Positions 24,449-37,325 of a DNA stretch of 64,000 nucleotides are shown one piece after another. Within the stretch, counting starts at the first letter, position 1, and each line of letters opens with the position of its first letter. The notes below the pieces were generated by a model, which ran no database searches, was not told the origin of the DNA, and saw nothing but the letters and a program-made list of their open reading frames with translations. Both the position numbers and the translations under genes were made by a program. The DNA comes from Prosopocoilus inquinatus (Eukaryota; Arthropoda; Insecta; Coleoptera; Lucanidae), in NCBI GenBank assembly GCA_036172665.1, contig CM069872.1, positions 20,997,001 to 21,061,000 of the forward strand, given 5' to 3'.

Positions 24449-25000
24449 TTTGGCTAGAATCACGTTTTTATATTTTTTTGGTACATACTTTAAAATAGTA
24501 ACATCTTCCTGATAACCAAATATAGTGGAAAATTCAGGACGCACTTTTGTATTCACAAATTCTAGAGGAAGTTCTCTTTTATTTTTTTTTTTACTGTCCC
24601 AACGTATGTCAGCCGATGGTCTTTCAATAACTTCCTAATTAAATCGAAACTGGTAAACCAATTGTCACAAGTGATGTTTCTTCCTGTTCCCGATATTGGC
24701 GCTATTAGTTGCAGGACATTAGCTGGATGCTAGAATCACGTTTCTATATTTTTTTGGTACATACTTTAAAATGGTAACATCTTCCTGGTAACCAAATATA
24801 GTAGAAAATACAGGACGCGCTTTTATATTTACAAATTCTAGTGGAAGTTCTCTTTTATTTTTTTTTACTGTCCCAAAATATGTCAGCCGATGGTCTTTCA
24901 GTAACTTTCTAATTAAATCGAAACTGGTAAACCAATTGTCACAGGTGATGTTTCTTCGTGTTCCCGATATTGGCGCTATTAGTCGCAGGACAACATTAGC
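24449..25000. repeat. Direct duplication of an approximately 274-bp transposase segment
   Basis: 24449-24722 and 24727-25000 both read GCTAGAATCACGTTT...TTGGCGCTATTAG, differing at several sites, in the same orientation. A third, shorter copy of the first 57 bases lies at 21847-21905. All correspond to the piggyBac core around the second catalytic Asp. The divergence suggests joining of different copies rather than a fresh tandem duplication. Confidence 0.8.
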
Positions 25001-25915
25001 AGGGTTATTAGCCACCCTATAAAGACCTTCTGGTTGCAAACCATCGTAGACTTCTAGGTTTGCAGTGTAGCTCATTTTAGCATCCACAAGAGCAAAAATT
25101 TTAATTCCGTATTTATTTGGCTTACTTGGGATGTATTGCTTAAATCCACAACGTCCTCTAAAAGCTTCCAATTTCTTGTCAATGGTTCCATATTCACCAA
25201 TTGTGTAACAAGATTTACAGTTTTCAACAAATTTATCGAATACATCACGAATTGGCGCTAACTTATCCACTCGTTTCCTTTCTTCCCGGCTTTGGAGATC
25301 ATCAAATCGTAAACATCTTAGCAAGAATAGGAAACGATTCTCGGACATGGTCAACCAAAATCTTTCTACACCAGTTCCTTCTTTGTCCCAAAGTTCTTTC
25401 GTGTTAAGGCGGCTACTTTTTAAGCAACCTGACAAATATAATAAACCAAATAATGCCTTTATTTCAGTAATATCTGTTGGTCTGGTAGCTCTTTCTCTAT
25501 GGTATTTATCTGACTGATTCAATATGTACTTATTTGTATTATTCACAATTATTTGCAGTATTTCTTCAGTAAAAAAGAGTCCCTAACATTCCAATACAGA
25601 TTTCATATTTCTTGCAGCACCTTTTACCCCAGGTACGTTGATAACAATATTTTCTTTTCTCGTTCTTACATTTCTGGGTGCACAATGTTTTCTCCATATT
25701 GTGATGCCATCTTTCGCAACGAAGGACACTTTCTTAGTAACAGGAACTACCTCTTCTTCAGAATCTTTACCCTCCTGTTCAGTTTCACTATTGGATAACC
25801 TTCCCTCTGTGAAGTCATCATCTTCCAACTCTTCATGACTATCATTTAATTCTTCAGCTTTGGTTTCCTCCCACAAACGGAGTAACCTCGCCTGCTCCTT
25901 CTCATAATAACTCAT
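24719..25915 (-). pseudogene. piggyBac transposase, N-terminal and core part
   Basis: Starts at ATG 25913-25915 with an acidic N-terminal domain (LNDSHEELEDDDF). A frameshift or stop near 25580 separates it from the core frame (25546-24719). Core: GLLYLSGCLKS, LWDKEGTGVERFWLTMS, GTIDKKLEAFRGRCGFKQYI (first catalytic Asp), KPNKYGIKIF, then NITCDNWFTSFDL (second Asp). The frame stops at ILASS-stop at 24719, where the mosaic begins. The third Asp lies in the left piece. Catalytic acids are retained but the gene is in pieces. Confidence 0.85.
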
Positions 25916-26180
25916 AATATCTAAATTTAATGGAAAGCAATGCTAAAAGTAAATACCAACAAATTATCTGCAAATAATTTACCGTATGTCACAGAAATAA
26001 ATATTTAAAAAAGTTCACTTCTGTATCACCGAACGTGGCGCTGGGTCTCACAGACTTTTATGCTTATTACTCTAAGATCTCTAGCACGTACACTGGCAAT
26101 ACTCAGTAGACTGGTTCAAGTATCGACAATAGGAAGGTACTGAAATTCAGAGATACCAACTCACTCCCGTGGAGGATTAA

Positions 26181-27104: not shown

Positions 27105-27880
27105 TATACCGGCAGTTTCAAATTGGGTGTTGTGCACTGAAGGGATCTCCTAAACCGTAAGAGATACAAATTTGGTTAAATGGAAGAAAAGTTGCACGAA
27201 TCAATGCCTAATTCGTATCCATTGAGAGAATGATTTTTTTTCTCATTTCTTCTTGAGTTAATAAAAATGTGAAAAATCGATTTTCTTTTTATCTCTGTAT
27301 CTCTTTTATTATATATAATTTTGAAATTCTGATTTAACTTTCTACAGGTACTTTTTGATTCTGCTTCGAATAAGAGTAATAGAATTGAAGTCAAACGTTT
27401 CGTCTTCCCACGACCATCATCAGTTTCGATTTTTTAAATACAACTTATGTCTTTTCATTGTTCTATTCGATAGCATTTTCTCTCCTGATTACAATGTTAT
27501 ATCTATCACACTTAATAGTTGATATTAATTTGAAGCTTAAATAATTCAGATTTTATATGAAAATTTTATTTAATACATAATTTCAAATTTTTTGTTCCTT
27601 TTCTTATCTTTTTATTATTCTACTCGAAAGCATTTTTTCTTTTGATTTCAGTAAGTATAATACTTAATACCTTTTTTTCAAGTAAAGTTGGAATATGACA
27701 AAAAAACTGATATCGTTTCGTTATGTTTTTCTTAATAAGTAAATTTACTCCTAACCTCTTTTTTTATTTGTTAAGTATTAGCAATAACATTCAGTTGTCG
27801 GAAGAGGAAAAGTCAATAAATATTGACTAAATGATATGAGGTGATTAACACAAACCAAATAAACATCAGTATAAACATAT

Positions 27881-28207
27881 TGTTACGTTTCTAGGGTTTA
27901 TGTTTATTTATTTAAACGAATAAAACACTCGATAAAAACTTAACCGTAATTTAATAAAGCTTAAAAACTAATTTATTTGTAATAATTTATTTTCACACTA
28001 AAATCTAACTTCGACGTTCGCTGTTAGAATTCGACTGCCTGGTGAGTCAACTCCGGGCGATTTTATATCATTTGCTGGCGTCTGGAAGTCTCTACGCTGG
28101 AAGCTTCTAGTTTGTTCGATGTAGGCCCCGGCCGCGTGACGGCCGATGACACATAACAGCGGACCGACTTCTTGACGCCTTGCGCTAAGTCAGGTTGGCT
28201 CGCCACA
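27881..28207 (-). repeat. Gypsy-1 3' LTR (327 bp)
   Basis: Starts TGTTACG and ends CGCCACA on the plus strand. On the coding strand it carries a TATA box (GATATAAAATC, about 28059-28069) and AATAAA-type signals in the AT-rich half near 27900-27990. The last codons and stop of pol (TGA 28190-28192) lie inside it. The polypurine tract AAGAAGGGGGCAG directly precedes it on the coding strand (28208-28220). Confidence 0.95.
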
Positions 28208-29125
28208 CTGCCCCCTTCTTAGAAACGTTTCGTCTCGAAATGTTCCTGGTGATAGTCTTGAAGGAGGGTGTCGGAATCTACATGCTGGCCCATTCTTGCA
28301 ACTTCCCGCCTGGAAGAAGTAACAGTCTACGGTTTTGCTGTTGCTGACTGTTGCCTGTGGGTGGTGGCTGCAGACTAGGACTTCAATTCCCGTTCTGTGG
28401 AAGATGACTTCTAGCATGCTTCGAATTACTCTCCAGTCTAGTCCGTCCAATCCGCAGCCCAATTTGGGGATGGCTAACTTCATCTGATGGTTCTCTATTA
28501 GCTGTCTCCTCAGGCTATATAGGGCTCTCCACATAGTCACATAGTCAGGTTTACCGCTTGATGTCTTCTTAGTGACTAAATAATGCACGTGGCGCCTCCG
28601 ATCTGCCGTCGAATCAATGATCTGCAAGCTCTTGCCTACCACGGGATGCTGTCTTCGTAGCTCCTCGATTTGGCCAAATTTCTTCCTAAACACCTGAGCG
28701 ATTCCTTTGGACATTTTCAGGTCTTCTGCTACGCAGTGGGCCAGACTGTACTCCAGTGGCACTTTAAAGAGATCTTGTTGCTTCTCCGTGGTCACTCCAA
28801 ACCGTGCCTTGCTTCCTTCGGCGTGATGAGACATGAAGGTTTCGAAGTTCACTTCGGAAACTTGCGCCCTTTGTACTGTCCCTTCATCTGCTTCTCCATG
28901 GTAAGGGGCTATCCGGTTGAAGTGGATTACTTTGGGTTTGCCATGGGGGACCTTCCTGATGCGGTAAACGACGTCGTTGATCCGTTTCATCACTTTGTAA
29001 GGACCTTCCCAAGAGGTCTGTAATTTTGGGGAGAGGCCTCGACGTCTTTGGGGGTTATAAAGCCAGACCAGTGCTCCAGGTTGGTATCCCCCGTGTTGAG
29101 CGTTGATGTCATAGTGCTCCTTCAT
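28190..29125 (-). CDS. Pol C-terminal part: integrase tail, OARD1/TARG1-like macrodomain and CCCH zinc finger
   Basis: 311 codons from ATG 29125. Residues 1-80 are the Gypsy integrase tail (SDRMKE-type start, WLYNP, KLQTSWEGPYKVMKR, then VYRIR and HFNRIAPYHG). Residues 125-255 match the OARD1/TARG1 branch of macrodomains: SLAHCVAEDLKMSKGIA (ADP-ribose loop), VFRKKFG, HYLVTKK, IPKLGCGLDGLDW and a last strand IEVLVC. As I recall, TARG1 catalysis uses a Lys in the 'TKK' region and the Asp of 'GCGLD'; both positions are kept. Residues 268-286 form C-x7-C-x5-C-x3-H (CYFFQAGSC..., CRFRH), an RNA-binding type finger. The frame overlaps the integrase stop by 4 nt (ATGA). In the original element it was probably fused in frame; a one-base shift separates it here. 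Confidence 0.9.
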   Translation of the reverse strand: MKEHYDINAQHGGYQPGALVWLYNPQRRRGLSPKLQTSWEGPYKVMKRINDVVYRIRKVPHGKPKVIHFNRIAPYHGEADEGTVQRAQVSEVNFETFMSHHAEGSKARFGVTTEKQQDLFKVPLEYSLAHCVAEDLKMSKGIAQVFRKKFGQIEELRRQHPVVGKSLQIIDSTADRRRHVHYLVTKKTSSGKPDYVTMWRALYSLRRQLIENHQMKLAIPKLGCGLDGLDWRVIRSMLEVIFHRTGIEVLVCSHHPQATVSNSKTVDCYFFQAGSCKNGPACRFRHPPSRLSPGTFRDETFLRRGQCGEPT

Positions 29126-30744
29126 CCGATCGCTGGCGTCTGTATATTGTGACGCACTTGGTTGTGGATATCATCCATTTTCCTGCGTAATTTGCTCACG
29201 TAATCTTCGTCGGCAGAGACTTCGCCAGGCTTCACACCAAACTTCAGGTCGCAGGGCAGTCTCGGCTCTCGCCCGAATACCACTTTCGCGGGAGTCTCCC
29301 CTGTTGTCTCATGAACAGATGAGCGGTTTGCCATTAGAAACAGGGGGATGTACGTGTCCCAGTCCCTCTGATGATTGGAAACGACCTTGGACAAATGTCG
29401 GTTGATGGTTCTATTGAACCTTTCCACCATTCCGTCCGACTGTGGGTGGAGTGCAGTTGTTCTAGTTTTTCGTACGCCGAGCAGAGTACACACGTTCTTG
29501 AACAAGGCCGATTCAAAGTTCCTTCCTTGGTCTGAATGCAGTTCCATAGGTGCACCATACCGACTGATCCATTCCCTGACAAGGACTTCCGCAGTAGTGA
29601 CTGCCTCTTGGTTAGGTAGGGCGTAAGCTTCAACCCACTTGCTAAAGTAGTCCATTACCACGACGATGTACTTGTTTCCACCATTCGTTTCTGGAAACGG
29701 GCCGGCTACATCGATGGCAACTCTCTCAAAAGGACTTCCAACGTTGTACTGTCTCATGGGAGCCTTACCCCGCCTGTGGGGACCGTTACTGGCTGCGCAA
29801 ACTGTACACTTTCTGCACCAATCCTTCACGTCTTCCTTGCAGTTCACCCAGTAAAATCTTTCGCGCACCTTCTCCATAGTCTTCTTAACTCCCAGATGCC
29901 CTCCGGAAGTTCCATCGTGAAGTTCCCTCAGAACTTCTGGCACCCTATTCTTGGGGATCAGTAACTGTGTCTTCTGTTCCATGCCTTCCTGATTCTCTAT
30001 GCTTCGTCTCAGAAGACCACGATCCAACACTATGGAGTCCCACTGCGCCCAGTATGATTTTACGGACGGTGCACATGGTGCTACCTCTTCCCAGGTAGGC
30101 CTCGCGTCCCTGCTTTTCCATTCTAGCACTAATTTCAAATCCGGGTCGTTCTCCTGGTCTCTTCGCAGTTCTTCGCCTTGCCATTTGTCATCAACAATGG
30201 CTGTCCTCGCAGTCGTGGCTACTTTCTCGTCCAAACGACTACAGTGCTTACAGTCTTCGGCACAGGGTCTTCTCGACAGAGCATCGGCATTTCGATGGCT
30301 AGTTCCTGCCCGATGCTGAATTTCAAAATCGTACTCCTGAAGTCGTTCGATCCATCGTGCAACTTGCCCTTCTGGGTTCTTGAAACGGAGAAGCCATTTT
30401 AGAGCGGCATGGTCGGTTTTCAGCAGGAAGCGTCTACCATACAAGTACTTGTAGAAGTGTTCTATCGTTTTTACGACGGCTAGCAATTCCCTTCTTGTGA
30501 CGCAATAGTTTCGTTCCGGCTTTGATAGGACTTTACTGAAGTAGCCGATCACCTTCTCTTGCCCCTCTTGTATCTGGGAGAGTACGCCACCAATCCCAAC
30601 GTTGCTAGCATCTGTGTCCACGACGAACTTGCCTTCCGGGAGAGGATAACTCAGAATAGGAGCACTAACCAAGTACTGCTTTAGTTGTTCAAAGCCAATT
30701 TGACACTGTTGGTCCCATTCAAATGGACGACCTTCTTCAGTGAG
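29122..30744 (-). CDS. Gypsy-1 Pol: RNase H and integrase
   Basis: Continues the RT frame after an in-frame TAA at 30745-30747. RNase H has FVVDTDASNVGIGGVLSQ (Asp), RRELLAVVKTIEHF (Glu) and LLKTDHAALKWLL (Asp). Integrase begins with the HHCC finger (H-DGTSGG-H, then C-RK-C) around FYWVNCKEDVKDWCRKCTVC. It continues with the core Asp in VAIDVAGPF, the second Asp in LHSDQGRNFES and the Glu in SDGMVERFNR. Ends at TGA 29122-29124 just before the integrase tail frame. All catalytic acids are present. Confidence 0.93.
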   Translation of the reverse strand, partial: LTEEGRPFEWDQQCQIGFEQLKQYLVSAPILSYPLPEGKFVVDTDASNVGIGGVLSQIQEGQEKVIGYFSKVLSKPERNYCVTRRELLAVVKTIEHFYKYLYGRRFLLKTDHAALKWLLRFKNPEGQVARWIERLQEYDFEIQHRAGTSHRNADALSRRPCAEDCKHCSRLDEKVATTARTAIVDDKWQGEELRRDQENDPDLKLVLEWKSRDARPTWEEVAPCAPSVKSYWAQWDSIVLDRGLLRRSIENQEGMEQKTQLLIPKNRVPEVLRELHDGTSGGHLGVKKTMEKVRERFYWVNCKEDVKDWCRKCTVCAASNGPHRRGKAPMRQYNVGSPFERVAIDVAGPFPETNGGNKYIVVVMDYFSKWVEAYALPNQEAVTTAEVLVREWISRYGAPMELHSDQGRNFESALFKNVCTLLGVRKTRTTALHPQSDGMVERFNRTINRHLSKVVSNHQRDWDTYIPLFLMANRSSVHETTGETPAKVVFGREPRLPCDLKFGVKPGEVSADEDYVSKLRRKMDDIHNQVRHNIQTPAIG

Positions 30745-32532
30745 TTATGTTAACGGCTTAGCAATGTCTGCAAATCCAGGAACGTAGCGCCGATAGTAAG
30801 TGCACAGGCCAAGGAAACTCCTTATTTGGTGTTTATTTCTGGGAGTTGGCCAGTCTTTCACCACCTGAATCTTCACAGGGTCCACGGCGATTCCGTTTCC
30901 ATTAACAATGTGCCCCAGGTAATTCACTTCCTTCTGGAACAGGTGACACTTCTTGAGGCTAAGCTTTAGTCCAGCTCCGCGAAGCCGCTGGAACACTCCT
31001 TCCAGTTTCCTTAGGTGGTCGTCGAACGTCTTTCCCACGACAATTATGTCGTCAAGGTACACCATGCACGTTGTCCAGGACAGACCTTTCAGAACCGTCT
31101 CCATTAACCTCTCGAATGTCGCTGGGGCATTACATAACCCGAATGGCATCACTGTGAACTGCCACAGACCCATACCAATGGAAAACGCCGTCTTTTCTCG
31201 ATCTTCGGGCGCCAGCTCCACTTGCCAATATCCACTCTTTAAGTCCAAAGTTGAGAAGATCTTTGAGCCGGCCAGGGTGTCCAGGGTATCATCAATCCGG
31301 GGCAAGGGATAGCTGTCCTTCTTGGTGACATTATTGAGTAACCGGTAGTCTACACAGAACCTGGTGGACCCATCCTTCTTCTTCACAAGCACTACTGGTG
31401 ACGCCCACGGGCTGCTTGATGGTTCTATTACATTATCCTTCTCCATCTCGCGAATAATGCGTTCCGCTTCCTCACGCTTCGCCAACGGTAATCGCCTTGG
31501 AGCTTGACGGATCGGTCTTTCTTCTCCAGTCTCTATTTTGTGTTTCACGACATCAGTTCTTCCCTTGGATCCATTTTCTACCTCAAATACATCTTGATAG
31601 CGGCCGATCAGATTCTTTGCTTTTGTCTTCTGGTCTGGAGTCAATTCCTGGGCTGTTGACATAACCATTTCCCATAATTTCTTTGGGACTTTCGCTTCTG
31701 GCACGTTTGTTTCAAGTTGCCGGGAGATGGAGGACACCATGGTGCAGCTTCCCAAGATTGTTCCTTTCTTGATATTGACAGAGAAACAATTGACATTCAT
31801 CAGGCGGACAGGTACTTCCTTCTTCGCCGTCAACAACATTTTCCCAACGAGGACTCCTCTTCCAATCCTTTGATCATCAGTATTAGGTTCAACCATAATG
31901 ACTTGCCCATCTTGAAAAACACCGTCCAGTTTTGCGTCGACGATAACCTCAGTCCTGCTGGGTAATACAACGTCTTCAGCGAGGACTACTCGAGCGGCCA
32001 CGTCCCCTCGTTGATGTAGAACCAACTCCTCATTATTGACCGCCATCACGCCACGCTTTAAGTCCAATTGGAACCCGTGGGCACACATGATGTCCATGCC
32101 CAAAATTGCCTCGTCCTCTATATCTGCCACCAGTGCACGGTGTTTTATTGGAGTTGAACCAATGGTGATGATAACCTCTACTTCACCGTGGACAGTTGCT
32201 GATGTTCCAGTTGCAGTTTTCAGTTTCCACTTGGTCGGCTCGGTGCGTCCAGATGACTTAATGACGTCGGGTCTTAGGATGGTCTTCGTCGCACCCGTAT
32301 CCAACAACATGGTGTGAGGAATGTCATCAATGGTGACATCCACGAAGACACTGCTGGTTAACTGCCGTAGGGATATTACTTGTTTGGCTTTCGTCTTTGG
32401 GGGCCTTTGAATACGGGTCGACGTTTGCCCCTCTGCACCGACCCGGCTTAGTTTAACTGTGGCTTCCTTGGATCCTGTCTGGGCTTTGGACATCGCCTGC
32501 GAACATGTCCTTCCTCCTGGCAATTCCAACAC
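30745..32532 (-). CDS. Gypsy-1 Pol: protease and reverse transcriptase
   Basis: Lies in the -1 frame relative to gag, overlapping it by 85 nt. Protease: HTMLLDTGATKTIL (active-site DTG, about residue 85), with a flap region and the second conserved hydrophobic-Gly motif (AILGMDIM). RT: FCVDYRLLNNVTKKDSYPLP, FSTLDLKSGYWQVEL, FTVMPFGLCNAPATFERLM, MVYLDDIIVVG (catalytic YxDD) and the thumb HLFQKEVNYLGHIVNG. The frame ends at TAA 30745-30747 just past the RT connection, where a sense codon is expected. Otherwise intact. Confidence 0.95.
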   Translation of the reverse strand: MLELPGGRTCSQAMSKAQTGSKEATVKLSRVGAEGQTSTRIQRPPKTKAKQVISLRQLTSSVFVDVTIDDIPHTMLLDTGATKTILRPDVIKSSGRTEPTKWKLKTATGTSATVHGEVEVIITIGSTPIKHRALVADIEDEAILGMDIMCAHGFQLDLKRGVMAVNNEELVLHQRGDVAARVVLAEDVVLPSRTEVIVDAKLDGVFQDGQVIMVEPNTDDQRIGRGVLVGKMLLTAKKEVPVRLMNVNCFSVNIKKGTILGSCTMVSSISRQLETNVPEAKVPKKLWEMVMSTAQELTPDQKTKAKNLIGRYQDVFEVENGSKGRTDVVKHKIETGEERPIRQAPRRLPLAKREEAERIIREMEKDNVIEPSSSPWASPVVLVKKKDGSTRFCVDYRLLNNVTKKDSYPLPRIDDTLDTLAGSKIFSTLDLKSGYWQVELAPEDREKTAFSIGMGLWQFTVMPFGLCNAPATFERLMETVLKGLSWTTCMVYLDDIIVVGKTFDDHLRKLEGVFQRLRGAGLKLSLKKCHLFQKEVNYLGHIVNGNGIAVDPVKIQVVKDWPTPRNKHQIRSFLGLCTYYRRYVPGFADIAKPLT

Positions 32533-33932
32533 ACCAGCGGCTTCTTCTGCTTGAAGACCTGTTCCACAATGCGGCGAACATCCTCGGCGGTGGTATACTC
32601 CCTGGGTCGCTCCTTTATAGCAGATCCCACCTTGGCGTTAGCGGATTCTTCCTCTTGGAAGTCCATAGCCGCTCGCACCTTGACATGCCCTCTTGAGACT
32701 CGTCTCGCCGCTTCAAATTCCAAGGCATAAGCCAATGCGTTCTTGGATGTCTTCGGATGGGTCATTCTCAATGCCTGCTGGTTGTCTGGGTCACGGATTC
32801 CATCTATGAAGGTCTGCACCGTCAAACATTTGAGGAATTCAACAGGAGCTGTGGGATATGCCAACTGGGTCAGACGCGCAACGTCTGCTTCGAATTCCTG
32901 AAGAGTTTCTCCGGATTTCTGACAGCGATTCCTCAACTGCGCATGGTATACCTCGGTCAGATGGGCCTGTCCGTAACGCATTTCCATCCTATTCACCAGC
33001 TTGTCGAAGTCTTCTTGTTCCTCTGGCGGCATCGTCTGTAGCACATCGATAGCGTCCCCTCTCAAGGCCACAATTAACGAAGTGGCTTTTTCGCTGGCCG
33101 TCCATCTGTTCGCCTTTGCTGCTGCTTCGAACTGTTTGAAGTAGTTGGGCCAAGAAGACTTTCCATCGAACGTTGGTGGTTTTATTTTTAATTTCGAATT
33201 TTCTGCTGGTCCTTCCACAATTCGGGTTTCATTATTTTCTAGTACTTCTACTGGTGGCTGATCCCCGAACACTCGCAACCCCGCCATGATTTGTTCCAGA
33301 TTTTTGATTTTGTTATCCTGCTGGAATATTATTTCTTCCACATTTTCTTGCAGGTTTCTTGTTTCTTCCGATATTTTTACCACTAGTTTATCTTCGAGTC
33401 CTTTCGTCTGTTCTAGAAATTCACCCTTCAAATTTCCGGACTGTTCTAGAAGTTTCTCGTCGAAATTTCTGGATTGCTCTAGAAATTTCTCGTCTAAGTC
33501 TCTAGATTGTTCCAACAATTTATTTTGTAATTTGTCGAAATTTCCAGATTGTTCTAGAAGCTTCTCCTCTAAATTTCTGGATTGTTCTCGAAGCTTCTGT
33601 AAATTTCCAGACTGTTCTTGAAACTTCTCGTCCAAATTTCTGGATTGTTCTCGAAGTTCGTCCTTGAAATTTCCAGATTGTTCTCGAAGTTCATCCTTAA
33701 AATTTCTGGATTGTTCTCGAAGTTCATCTTTCAAGATTTTATTAAAATCGACGGGACCACACGAAATTTCGAAAAGGAACGTCTCTGAATCTTCACCAGC
33801 TGTCAACAAATCGGATCGGAGACGCTGTTGAAGTGCGCCTTTCAAACCACAGGTTTCTAACTCTCATTCTTCCAATTCGGTTTTTAATTCGGCCACTTTT
33901 AAGTCTTTCAACAACACTTTTCTCGTAGCCAT
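32448..33932 (-). CDS. Gypsy-1 Gag: SAP domain, hendecad coiled coil, gag core, CCHC knuckle
   Basis: The probable start is ATG 33930-33932. The first 40 codons have the SAP-domain pattern (LKDLKVAELKTELEE, then GLKGALQQRLRSDL), a DNA/chromatin-binding helix pair, interrupted by TGA at 33864-33866 where CGA would fit. Residues 42-153 counted from 33845 are ten copies of an 11-residue unit (LREQSRNFKDE-like), a long coiled coil. The gag core (FDGKSSWPNYFKQFEAAA...) and a CCHC knuckle (CWNCQEEGHVRRRC) follow. Ends at TAA 32448-32450. Confidence 0.9.
32451..32457 (-). promoter_or_regulatory. Candidate -1 ribosomal frameshift heptamer GTTAAAC
   Basis: The last two gag codons read TTA-AAC before TAA, preceded by G, giving G-TTA-AAC in the X-XXY-YYZ phase used for -1 slippage. 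GUUAAAC is a heptamer I know from an arterivirus frameshift site. Pol is exactly in the -1 frame and open across this site. A downstream pseudoknot was not examined. Confidence 0.5.
33387..33722 (-). repeat. 33-bp minisatellite inside Gypsy-1 gag
   Basis: Ten tandem units encode EQS(R/G)N(L/F) hendecads; one unit is 10 and one is 14 residues. At the DNA level the recurring core is TCTGGATTGTTCTCGAAG on the plus strand. The array would let the coil change length by unequal exchange. Confidence 0.9.
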
Positions 33933-34010: not shown

Positions 34011-34029
34011 ACCCCACACCTGACACCAC
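34011..34029 (-). other. Gypsy-1 primer-binding site
   Basis: Next to the 5' LTR, the coding strand reads G-TGGTGTCAGGTGTGGGG. A PBS starting TGG, one base from the LTR, is standard and pairs with a tRNA ending ...ACCTGACACCA. Gypsy-3 has TGGTGTCAGGT at the same place, so both probably use the same tRNA. The tRNA species is not identified. Confidence 0.7.
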
Positions 34030-34356
34030 TGTTACGTTTCTAGGGTTTATGTTTATTTATTTAAACGAATAAAACACTCGATAAAAACTTAACCGTAATT
34101 TAATAAAGCTTAAAAACTAATTTATTTGTAATAATTTATTTTCACACTAAAATCTAACTTCGACGTTCGCTGTTAGAATTCGACTGCCTGGTGAGTCAAC
34201 TCCGGGCGATTTTATATCATTTGCTGGCGTCTGGAAGTCTCTACGCTGGAAGCTTCTAGTTTGTTCGATGTAGGCCCCGGCCGCGTGACGGCCGATGACA
34301 CATAACAGCGGACCGACTTCTTGACGCCTTGCGCTAAGTCAGGTTGGCTCGCCACA
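34030..34356 (-). repeat. Gypsy-1 5' LTR (327 bp)
   Basis: Reads the same as 27881-28207 base for base as far as I can compare. Boundary TG...CA with ATAT on the outside. This copy would drive transcription of the element towards lower coordinates. Confidence 0.95.
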
Positions 34357-35712
34357 ATATTAAATTACAAGAACAGAATAAATAAATTGAATAAAAATTA
34401 TAGACGAAGAACATGACTCTGTGAAATAAATAAAGTGAAATAAATAAATTAAAGTAAATCCTCGAAATGTCCTCCACTGCTTTCAAGTCACATATTCGTT
34501 CTTAATCCTATGTGTTGTCTAGCGTATCGAACATGAATTCGCGAAACATTTCTGTAAGAATCTAATATTCGCCTTCTTAGTTTCTCCTTATTATTTATCT
34601 TAATGCTAGTCTTTGTTTCAATGTCCAAAATATAAAGCCTACTTTATCCTGTTTAAATTATGGATGGCGGTTCCGATATAACGTGCCAAACTTGAACTGG
34701 TTAAAACGAGTGAACTTAATCGTATTTAAAAAAAAAATAAAGATAGTCAAGTGTTGAGAGCCACTGAATGCTAAAGAAATTTAAAAAAAAATACATTGTT
34801 ATAGAAAGTATCTTTCAAATTTATTACAAAAATATTCGTTTTAGCTGCCAATGTATTTGTAGAAGGCACTATTCAGTAATAACTAAATATTTTTAGTATA
34901 ATTAGTATTCACTTTTTCTTTTAATCCAACAGTGCGAGTCAAAATTAAAAACTAGGCTTTTTCATTCCTATACTAAAACTGAGATACTGATCTGGCAAGT
35001 TATATTAGAACCACTACATATTTTTCGGTAAAAATTCATTTTCGTAAGTGCAGTGCATTATTAAAATAACGATACAGAAAAACTTTAAATAGTTTATTAT
35101 AATTTACACTATAGCTAAGAAAATGAACTAAAAATTTGAAATTATGTATTAAATAAAATTTTCACATAAAAATCTGTGTTATTTAAACTTCAGATTAATA
35201 TCAACTATTAAGTGTGATATATCATTGTAATCAGGAGAAAAAATGCTATCGAATAGAACAATAAAAAGACACAAGTTGTATTTAAAAAATCGAAACTGAT
35301 GATGGTCGTGGAAAAACGAAACGTTTGACTTCAATTCTATTACACTTACTCGAAGCAGAATCAAAAAGTGCCTGTAGAAATTTAAATCAGAATTTCAAAA
35401 TTAAGTATAATAAAAGAGATACAGAGAGAAGAAGAAAATCGATTTTTTCACATTTTCATTAATATCTCAAGAAGAAATAAGAAAAAAATCATTCTCTCAA
35501 TGGATACGAATTAGGCATTGATTCGTGCAACTTTTCTTCCATTTAACCAAATTTGTATCTCTTACGGTTTAGTAGATCCTTTCAGTGCACACCCAATTTG
35601 AAACAGCCGGTATATTGCCTTTATTATTTTTATTATTTTGAATACAGTATACTGAATTATGACTTAATATAATTTTTGAAATTTGGCTCTATTTGAATTT
35701 TGTTTTATCTTA

Positions 35713-37325
35713 GAAAAAATTACACAAGCAGTTCAGGTTGTTCAGAATGATATGTCAAAACTTAAAGCATCAAAAAGGTTTGGTATACCGAGAGCAACTA
35801 TACAGTTTCGTATGGGAGCCAAATTTAAAAAGCCTGGTCGTGGCCCAGCTACCTATCTAAGAACGGAGGAAAAAAGAACATTAGTTGAGTAAGACGATTT
35901 TATTTTTGTTAATTATACAATATTTAAAAAATCATTACCATCAAGTGGATAAATACATGTCAAAAAAAGGGCTTCCCGAGGAGAGTAGATGTACAAAAAA
36001 GTGTACAAAACTTTATTAAATTTTGTGACAGGAAAACGCCCTTTCCTGATGGTTTACCTAGAAAGGGATGGTACCGCGCCTTTATAAAAAGACATCCAGA
36101 ATTGTGTCTCAGAACAACTGAGGCTGTTACTCAAGCCAGCTCTTGTGTTAGTGAAAAGAACATAAGAGATTGGTTTGAAACCGTTGAGAATGACCTCGAA
36201 AGAGACGGCTTAAAACACATTTTATATAATTCTAATAGAATATTTAATGGGGACGAGACAAATTTCCTCCTTTGCCCAAGAAATAAAAAAGTACTAGCTA
36301 GCAGAGGTACAAAAAACGTGTACGAAGTAGATCAAGGCGTAGCGAAAGTGTCGCTTACGGTGATGTTTACCTTTTGTGCTAATGGTGACCTTTCGCCGCC
36401 GATGAATATATATCCCTATAAAAGAAAGCCGCCCAAAGAAATCCTTAAAACGGTGCCTGAAAAATGGGGTGTTGGCTATTCAGATAATGGCTGGATGAAA
36501 ACTTCCCTTTTTTATGAATATGTGGCCAATGTATTTAATGTATATCTGGAAGAAAAGCATATTCAAAAACCTGTCAAACTGTTCGTCGATGAACATAAAA
36601 TTCATCTTACATTGCAGATAAGTCAGATATGTAAGAGACTCGAAATAATATTGATTCCATTGTACCCCAATGCAACAAGGTTACTGCGACCTGCCGATGT
36701 CGCCGCCTTCAAACCTTTAAAGACTAACTGGCAAAGAGGAATTTTGGAATGGAGACGACAACATCCATTATTGCAATTTACGAAAGAAAACTTCGCCCCA
36801 TTGCTTTCGAAAGTAACAGAAGAATATGTTAGAAGTTCGACAATAGTCAACGGTTTTAAGGCAACAGGTCTCTTTCCATGGAATTGTAATGCCATTGACT
36901 ATTCAAAATGTCTCGGAGGTGCCTATAAAAATAAGCAAAACGTAACAGAAGAAAGAGATGTTACTAATGTTAGCAACAATAACGACCTAAATGAGACTAA
37001 AAACGAACCAGTTCTCGATTTTAAAAAATTCATAAGTTTTCTTGATGACTTGATTAAATCGTTCGAAAATGGTAGTAAGACCGTAAACAATTCTGAAAAA
37101 AAATGTCTTTTTGAAATTTGGAATTTTCGTAATAATCAGGGAGAAACTGATTACTCGTCATTATTTGATATTGCGAATATGCCCATAGATATGGTAGAAA
37201 CAGAAAATTTTGACGCAGATTTGAACCTAACTTTGCAAGATTACGACGACAATCAAGCTCTCGAACAAACCGTTTCTACAGCTTCGACAAATAACTTGAA
37301 ATCTATGGAAATTTCTAAAGACTAA
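35713..37325 (+). pseudogene. pogo/jerky-like DDE_1 transposase, incomplete 5' end
   Basis: An exon from an acceptor at 35712 to a GT at 35889 encodes an HTH_psq-type domain (ITQAVQVVQNDMSKLKASKR, then FGIPRATIQFR). After a 57-bp intron the frame at 35946-37325 gives the CENP-B-type second HTH (PFPDGLPRKGWYRAFIKRHP) and the DDE_1 core: FNGDETNF (Asp), VKLFVDEHKIHLTLQ (Asp), LRPADVAAFKPLK (Asp). The usual FVDGH reads FVDEH. No start codon is seen for the first exon, and a Lys-rich tail (37390-37600) with stops follows. Probably decayed at both ends; the core is intact. Confidence 0.82.

Follow-up and report, generated by a model that had tools for sequence, protein, structure and literature searches.

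The 64,000-nucleotide stretch of the Prosopocoilus inquinatus genome analysed here (the window) raises the question of why the Pol protein of a Gypsy retrotransposon should end in a macrodomain and a CCCH zinc finger. The question has three parts: whether these domains are correctly identified, whether they belong to the element, and what they may do for it. The element at 34356-27881 on the minus strand is a Ty3/Gypsy-type LTR retrotransposon. It has paired LTRs, a target-site duplication and a polypurine tract, and the Pfam profiles follow the order protease, reverse transcriptase (RT), RNase H and integrase, which is spread over three frames in this copy. The features of the window copy are listed below.

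34357..34360, no strand: target-site duplication ATAT, copy 1, flanking the 5' LTR
34030..34356, minus strand: 5' LTR of 327 bp, beginning TGTGGCG and ending GTAACA, identical to the 3' LTR
34012..34028, minus strand: putative primer-binding site TGGTGTCAGGTGTGGGG, adjoining the 5' LTR and presumably tRNA-Leu-like
32448..33863, minus strand: gag open reading frame of 471 aa, with a region of repeated 11-aa units and one CCHC knuckle (zf-CCHC)
30745..32637, minus strand: protease and RT frame (Asp_protease_2 3.3e-10, RVT_1 4.7e-38), with a stop codon after the RT
29122..30744, minus strand: frame of RNase H and the integrase zinc-binding and core domains (RT_RNaseH 1.1e-33, Integrase_H2C2 1.1e-20, rve 4.2e-13)
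28190..29170, minus strand: tail frame of 326 aa, with the integrase C-terminal domain, then the macrodomain, then the CCCH finger
28856..29140, minus strand: C-terminal part of the integrase, residues 11-105 of the tail frame (Integrase_p58_C 8.2e-12 at residues 56-89)
28367..28795, minus strand: TARG1/OARD1-type macrodomain, aa 126-268, from a PDB sequence match of 1.7e-28, a model and a fold match
28568..28570, minus strand: codon of Lys201, aligned with Lys84 of TARG1
28445..28447, minus strand: codon of Asp242, aligned with residue 125 of TARG1
28268..28324, minus strand: CPSF30-like CCCH zinc finger, aa 283-301 (zf-CCCH 26.5 bits, CPSF4 chains 3.8e-14)
28208..28220, minus strand: polypurine tract AAGAAGGGGGCAG, also coding (RRGQ), adjoining the 3' LTR
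28190..28192, minus strand: stop codon of the tail frame, at bases 16-18 of the 3' LTR
27881..28207, minus strand: 3' LTR of 327 bp, identical to the 5' LTR
27877..27880, no strand: target-site duplication ATAT, copy 2, flanking the 3' LTR

The pol of the window copy is interrupted. A stop codon lies between the RT and RNase H, the tail (29170-28190) and the integrase core (30744-29122) are read in two separate frames, and the gag and protease frames differ too. The original prediction had the tail continuing in the frame of the integrase. This is correct for the integrase tail, the macrodomain and the CCCH finger, which are read in one frame, but the integrase core of this copy is in another. 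Three further features were observed in and around the element. The start of gag (33397-33732, minus strand) consists of repeats of about 33 bp (11 aa) and is likely a coiled coil. A piggyBac-type transposase (DDE_Tnp_1_7, 2e-58) at 24453-25942 of the minus strand has internal blocks of 138-144 bp repeated at 93%. On the plus strand, an open frame of 465 aa at 35928-37325 has a DDE_1 transposase domain (1.9e-11), which we take to be pogo/Tigger-like.

The tail frame carries the motifs SLAHCVAEDLKMSKGIA, HYLVTKK, IPKLGCGLDGLDW and C-x7-C-x5-C-x3-H, from which a macrodomain of the TARG1/OARD1 branch and a CCCH finger had been predicted. Profile searches gave a divided answer. Integrase_p58_C (8.2e-12) and zf-CCCH (5.8e-6) both exceed their cut-offs, but the Pfam Macro profile PF01661 scores 16.6 bits on the tail, under its cut-off of 22. 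Comparison with solved structures and folds was therefore used to identify the macrodomain. Residues 126-266 match human TARG1 (C6orf130) with an E-value of 1.7e-28, and the next macrodomain chain follows at 1.4e-5. An AlphaFold2 model of the tail, built from a 41-row alignment (mean pLDDT 82.5, pTM 0.63, with pLDDT of about 90-98 across most of the macrodomain), has TARG1 as its first eight matches in the PDB, of which the best is 4j5s_C with a TM-score of 0.93 (target length) at 1.8 A. DarG ranks next. Lys201 and Asp242 align with Lys84 and residue 125 of TARG1, so the catalytic pair is kept in the window, as had been predicted. Residue 125 is Asp in the aligned human chain and is given as Glu125 in a passage of the review PMC7050489. 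The sequence match and the fold supply the significant macrodomain match on which the original prediction depended, and it is near certain that the domain is of the TARG1/OARD1 type. The CCCH finger, which also bears out the prediction, scores 26.5 bits against a cut-off of 20.5 for PF00642 and fits C-x7-9-C-x4-6-C-x3-H. It matches the fingers of CPSF30/CPSF4 at 3.8e-14 summed over five fingers, the best single finger giving 0.0042.

The tail could in principle be a chance read-through into host DNA, or a gene-model accident that fused a host OARD1 to a single element copy. The interrupted pol of the window copy would fit such an event, and some public models named OARD1-like are really tails of this kind (P0100 carries the integrase domain PF22938). 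However, the tail frame crosses the polypurine tract and terminates in the 3' LTR, not in host DNA. The tail is also present in many other copies, a point on which the prediction could have failed. It is encoded at no fewer than 123 places in the 650-Mb genome (the best 123 of 2085 first-look candidates, a list that leans to intact copies and includes some duplicates of one insertion, such as L005 and L006 with the same flank), all 98-100% identical. No stop lies within the match at 121 of these places, and each of the 30 extracted loci has an LTR match (86-100%) that begins where the tail ends. With the public proteins that have all three parts, described below, these observations rule out read-through into host DNA and make the accident hardly credible. 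The tail is thereby shown to be a regular component of a young, high-copy family and to recur in its relatives in other beetles. Since the open frame around 34 of the 123 places is 1,800 aa or longer, roughly as long as the entire internal region, other copies could encode everything from gag to the CCCH finger as a single frame. Two pairs of insertions on one contig (G000:C5, 40269 kb with 48661 kb, and 39908 kb with 48323 kb) are identical within each pair and score equally, and one pair also shares its flank. Such pairs are either segmental duplications or assembly duplicates.

The domains of the tail are more conserved than the linkers between them. Identity to 15 full relatives is 0.63 for the integrase tail, 0.54 for the macrodomain and 0.52 for the CCCH finger, compared with 0.46 and 0.28 for the two linkers and 0.40 for the C-terminus, which is encoded in part by the polypurine tract. 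The per-site proportion of amino-acid to silent variants (N/S), taken over 42 family copies, is 0.25 for both the macrodomain and the integrase tail. Such ratios lean towards constraint because the copies were chosen by protein score. For the best 30 copies dN/dS comes to 0.21 for the macrodomain and 0.17 for the integrase tail, on few changes. Both catalytic residues are kept in 23 of the 29 integrase-tail-type rows of the macrodomain tree (window included). The other six rows retain the domain without the full pair: P0012, P0018 and P0025 are without both residues and P0026, P0028 and P0067 are without the aspartate, and four of the six cluster in the tree (92/87). The use of LTR divergence (86-100%) against protein identity as a sign of selection was dropped, because synonymous sites of the tail are nearly unchanged too.

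Proteins with the same tail were found in other insects. The search found 98 public proteins, of which 69 match the macrodomain and 48 have it in full. Of the latter, 39 extend at least 35 residues beyond it, 31 of these with the CCCH motif, and an integrase motif lies upstream in 27 of the 48. The integrase tail, macrodomain and CCCH finger occur together in 22, so the predicted architecture exists elsewhere. This is a motif count and a lower bound, as Harmonia P0015 has the parts without that exact motif. The 15 named proteins among the 22 come from five beetle genera (Aromia, Molorchus, Exocentrus, Callosobruchus and Diabrotica), and this clade has further tails or macrodomains in the beetles Harmonia and Pyrocoelia and in one leafhopper, Macrosteles (P0062, Hemiptera), whose model is without the integrase part. 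In at least one relative, P0063, the integrase tail is closer (68% over 29% of the query) and the end is unrelated, on a 1.7-kb contig. In P0067 (Holotrichia oblita) the model fuses a macrodomain of the same clade to an HTH_psq transposase-like part, perhaps by accident of the model. The public OARD1-like models P0100 (Leptinotarsa) and P0062 both group with the retroelement type. Beetle gene models called OARD1-like can therefore be retrotransposon fragments, as P0100 warns.

The same genome has five further retroelement families (B-F) with a TARG1-type macrodomain, in this case downstream of the aspartic protease. They formed no part of the original prediction, nor did the interrupted pol or the few relatives that lack one or both catalytic residues. 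A search with the beetle OARD1-like protein P0065 returned one host gene and several retroelement families, namely B (14 rows), C and D; C then served as the query that yielded families E and F. For C, E and F a single copy was examined in each case, and for B several. The macrodomain precedes the RT in B (L044) and C (L047), where RVT_1 was found by Pfam, and in E (L061) and F (L062), where RT motifs were recognized by eye; in family D (L046, L051) the frame ends before any RT. The macrodomains of D exceed the Pfam Macro cut-off (25.8 and 28.5 bits). TARG1 is the best match of all four macrodomains tried (B 4.2e-31, D 2.3e-39, E 3.4e-38, F 1.4e-35), and both catalytic residues are present in all seven B-F rows. 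In family B the macrodomain has an N/S of 0.52 compared with 0.30 for the protease (14 copies, one stop), so its constraint looks weaker. Family E is young: of the 19 rows that have one and the same score, 16 show an open reading frame 1,764 aa long. Three of its macrodomains (G000:C5:47386705, 47398187 and 47409669) are exactly 11,482 bases apart, which is a tandem duplication of the element plus its flank. The host OARD1-like gene is at G000:C5:3752700 (L031), with 61% identity to P0065, and apparently has two macrodomains in tandem, the second one upstream. When public proteins were searched with the post-protease macrodomain, none of 315 candidates was reported. This does not speak for absence, since P0069, within the length range and with 10 words in common, gives an E-value of about 7e-37 in a local search.

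The origin of the domain was addressed with a tree of 52 macrodomains, from which P0098 was left out as a weak match (62 bits). With bootstrap values that have not settled, the integrase-tail macrodomains form one clade (100/99), as do those of B, C, E and F (98/94), with D apart; the two groups join at only 75/67, and a topology that unites all retroelement macrodomains passes the AU test (p-AU 0.41). The RT of the window family has 54-65% identity to those of B, C and E, which are 81-86% identical among themselves. The phylogeny called for by the original prediction thus recovers the integrase-tail type as a single lineage but does not single out a donor or a number of captures. One capture followed by a move within Pol and several captures would both be compatible with the macrodomain tree. 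That the domain was captured from a host is plausible.

The favoured reading, to which we give a probability of about 0.4, is that the macrodomain acts as an ADP-ribose eraser in the particle and the nucleus. Nicks and DNA ends attract PARP1, and this, together with the cleavage range of TARG1 and the expected packaging alongside integrase and RT, is the reason for favouring it. The macrodomain would be produced at the end of the polyprotein, packaged with the integrase, and would enter the nucleus with the cDNA alongside integrase and RT. It would strip ADP-ribose placed by host PARPs on protein Asp/Glu or on nucleic-acid ends, whether in the particle, at the cDNA ends or at the integration site, to which PARP1 would be drawn by nicks and gaps. 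The CCCH finger may hold the macrodomain on the nucleic acid of the element or on a protein partner, and the families with a macrodomain between protease and RT may bring the same activity by a different route. The actions proposed in the original prediction, namely reversal of ADP-ribosylation at integration sites, relief from silencing and RNA binding by the finger, are likewise conjectural. The review PMC7050489 credits TARG1 with removing ADP-ribose that is linked to Asp/Glu or, through a phosphoester, to the ends of nucleic acids, and with interacting with PARP1. The TARG1 match and fold, the kept catalytic pair, the macrodomain N/S as low as that of the integrase tail, the conservation of domains over linkers and the TARG1 matches of the post-protease macrodomains are all consistent with an eraser.

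Two other functions have to be weighed against this one. The macrodomain may instead read ADP-ribosylated chromatin and tether the integrase to it, much as chromodomains presumably do for chromoviruses, with catalysis optional. Its position directly after the integrase C-terminal domain is that of the chromodomain in chromoviruses (PMC3605345), and a pure eraser leaves unexplained the six rows in which the domain is retained without the full catalytic pair. As far as the aligned residues can tell, the lineage without the pair speaks for some reader function at least. As a general account this is nevertheless rather unlikely, since most integrase-tail rows do keep the pair, every post-protease row keeps it away from the integrase, and no chromodomain was found: none is among the Pfam matches to the tail at E-values up to 1, so the element differs from chromoviruses in this respect. 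The macrodomain could also reverse mono-ADP-ribosylation by which the host silences or degrades the element, for example marks set by sirtuins or PARPs on silencing factors or on the element's RNA. There are precedents for such marks in two papers: SIRT6 mono-ADP-ribosylates KAP1 and silences LINE-1 in mammals (PMC4695847), and ADP-ribosylation of transposon RNA is raised in the review PMC7050489. The occurrence of one domain type in several retroelement families would agree with a counter-defence. However, an exon-wise genome search, which gives a lower bound, returned five PARP-domain matches at about four loci, so neither a large antiviral PARP set nor an expansion in the vertebrate style was seen, and this function appears improbable. 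The few PARP loci also count against the eraser, as do the six rows and the weaker constraint in family B.

To our knowledge, ADP-ribosylation is not usually counted among the obstacles to transposable elements. That Pol retains a catalytic-looking eraser in a range of beetles, and that six retroelement families of a single genome carry one in either of two positions, hints at such an obstacle, and the use of the same enzyme type by several families hints that ADP-ribose marks matter to these elements. The macrodomain is also a directly assayable domain. A wider proposal, tentative and on balance doubtful, is that insect LTR retrotransposons took up a TARG1-type eraser more than once, at two sites in Pol (at the integrase C-terminus with the CCCH finger, and between protease and RT), the reason being that retrotransposition would meet a general barrier wherever particles, DNA ends or target chromatin are ADP-ribosylated.

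Among known proteins, the macrodomain of the tail is closest to TARG1/OARD1/C6orf130 (the ALC1-like class), with which it shares sequence, fold and the positions of Lys84 and residue 125. The host TARG1 is a small separate protein according to a passage of PMC7050489, whereas that of the element is a C-terminal part of Pol followed by a CCCH finger. The macrodomain of the DarG antitoxin is the only NCBIfam match (1.2e-10) and the second-best fold family, but at 41.2 bits against a cut-off of 250 it is weaker than TARG1 by both sequence and fold. Chromoviruses resemble the element in that their integrase, too, is extended at this end by a chromatin-related domain (PMC3605345), but they carry a chromodomain and the window element has a macrodomain and a CCCH finger instead. 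Among the matches listed from the open-licence PMC literature, no Gypsy element was described as carrying a macrodomain, and the only precedent was one review (PMC4977317), which cites 2009 work on macro domain ORFs in fish Epsilon-like (endogenous) retroviruses. These too are retroelements with a macrodomain; as the review describes them, however, it is present as additional ORFs and in a vertebrate host. In the insect LTR elements it is fused in frame to the integrase or follows the protease. A retroelement with a macrodomain was therefore already known, and what is new is the fusion to the integrase with a CCCH finger and, in the other families, the placement after the protease.
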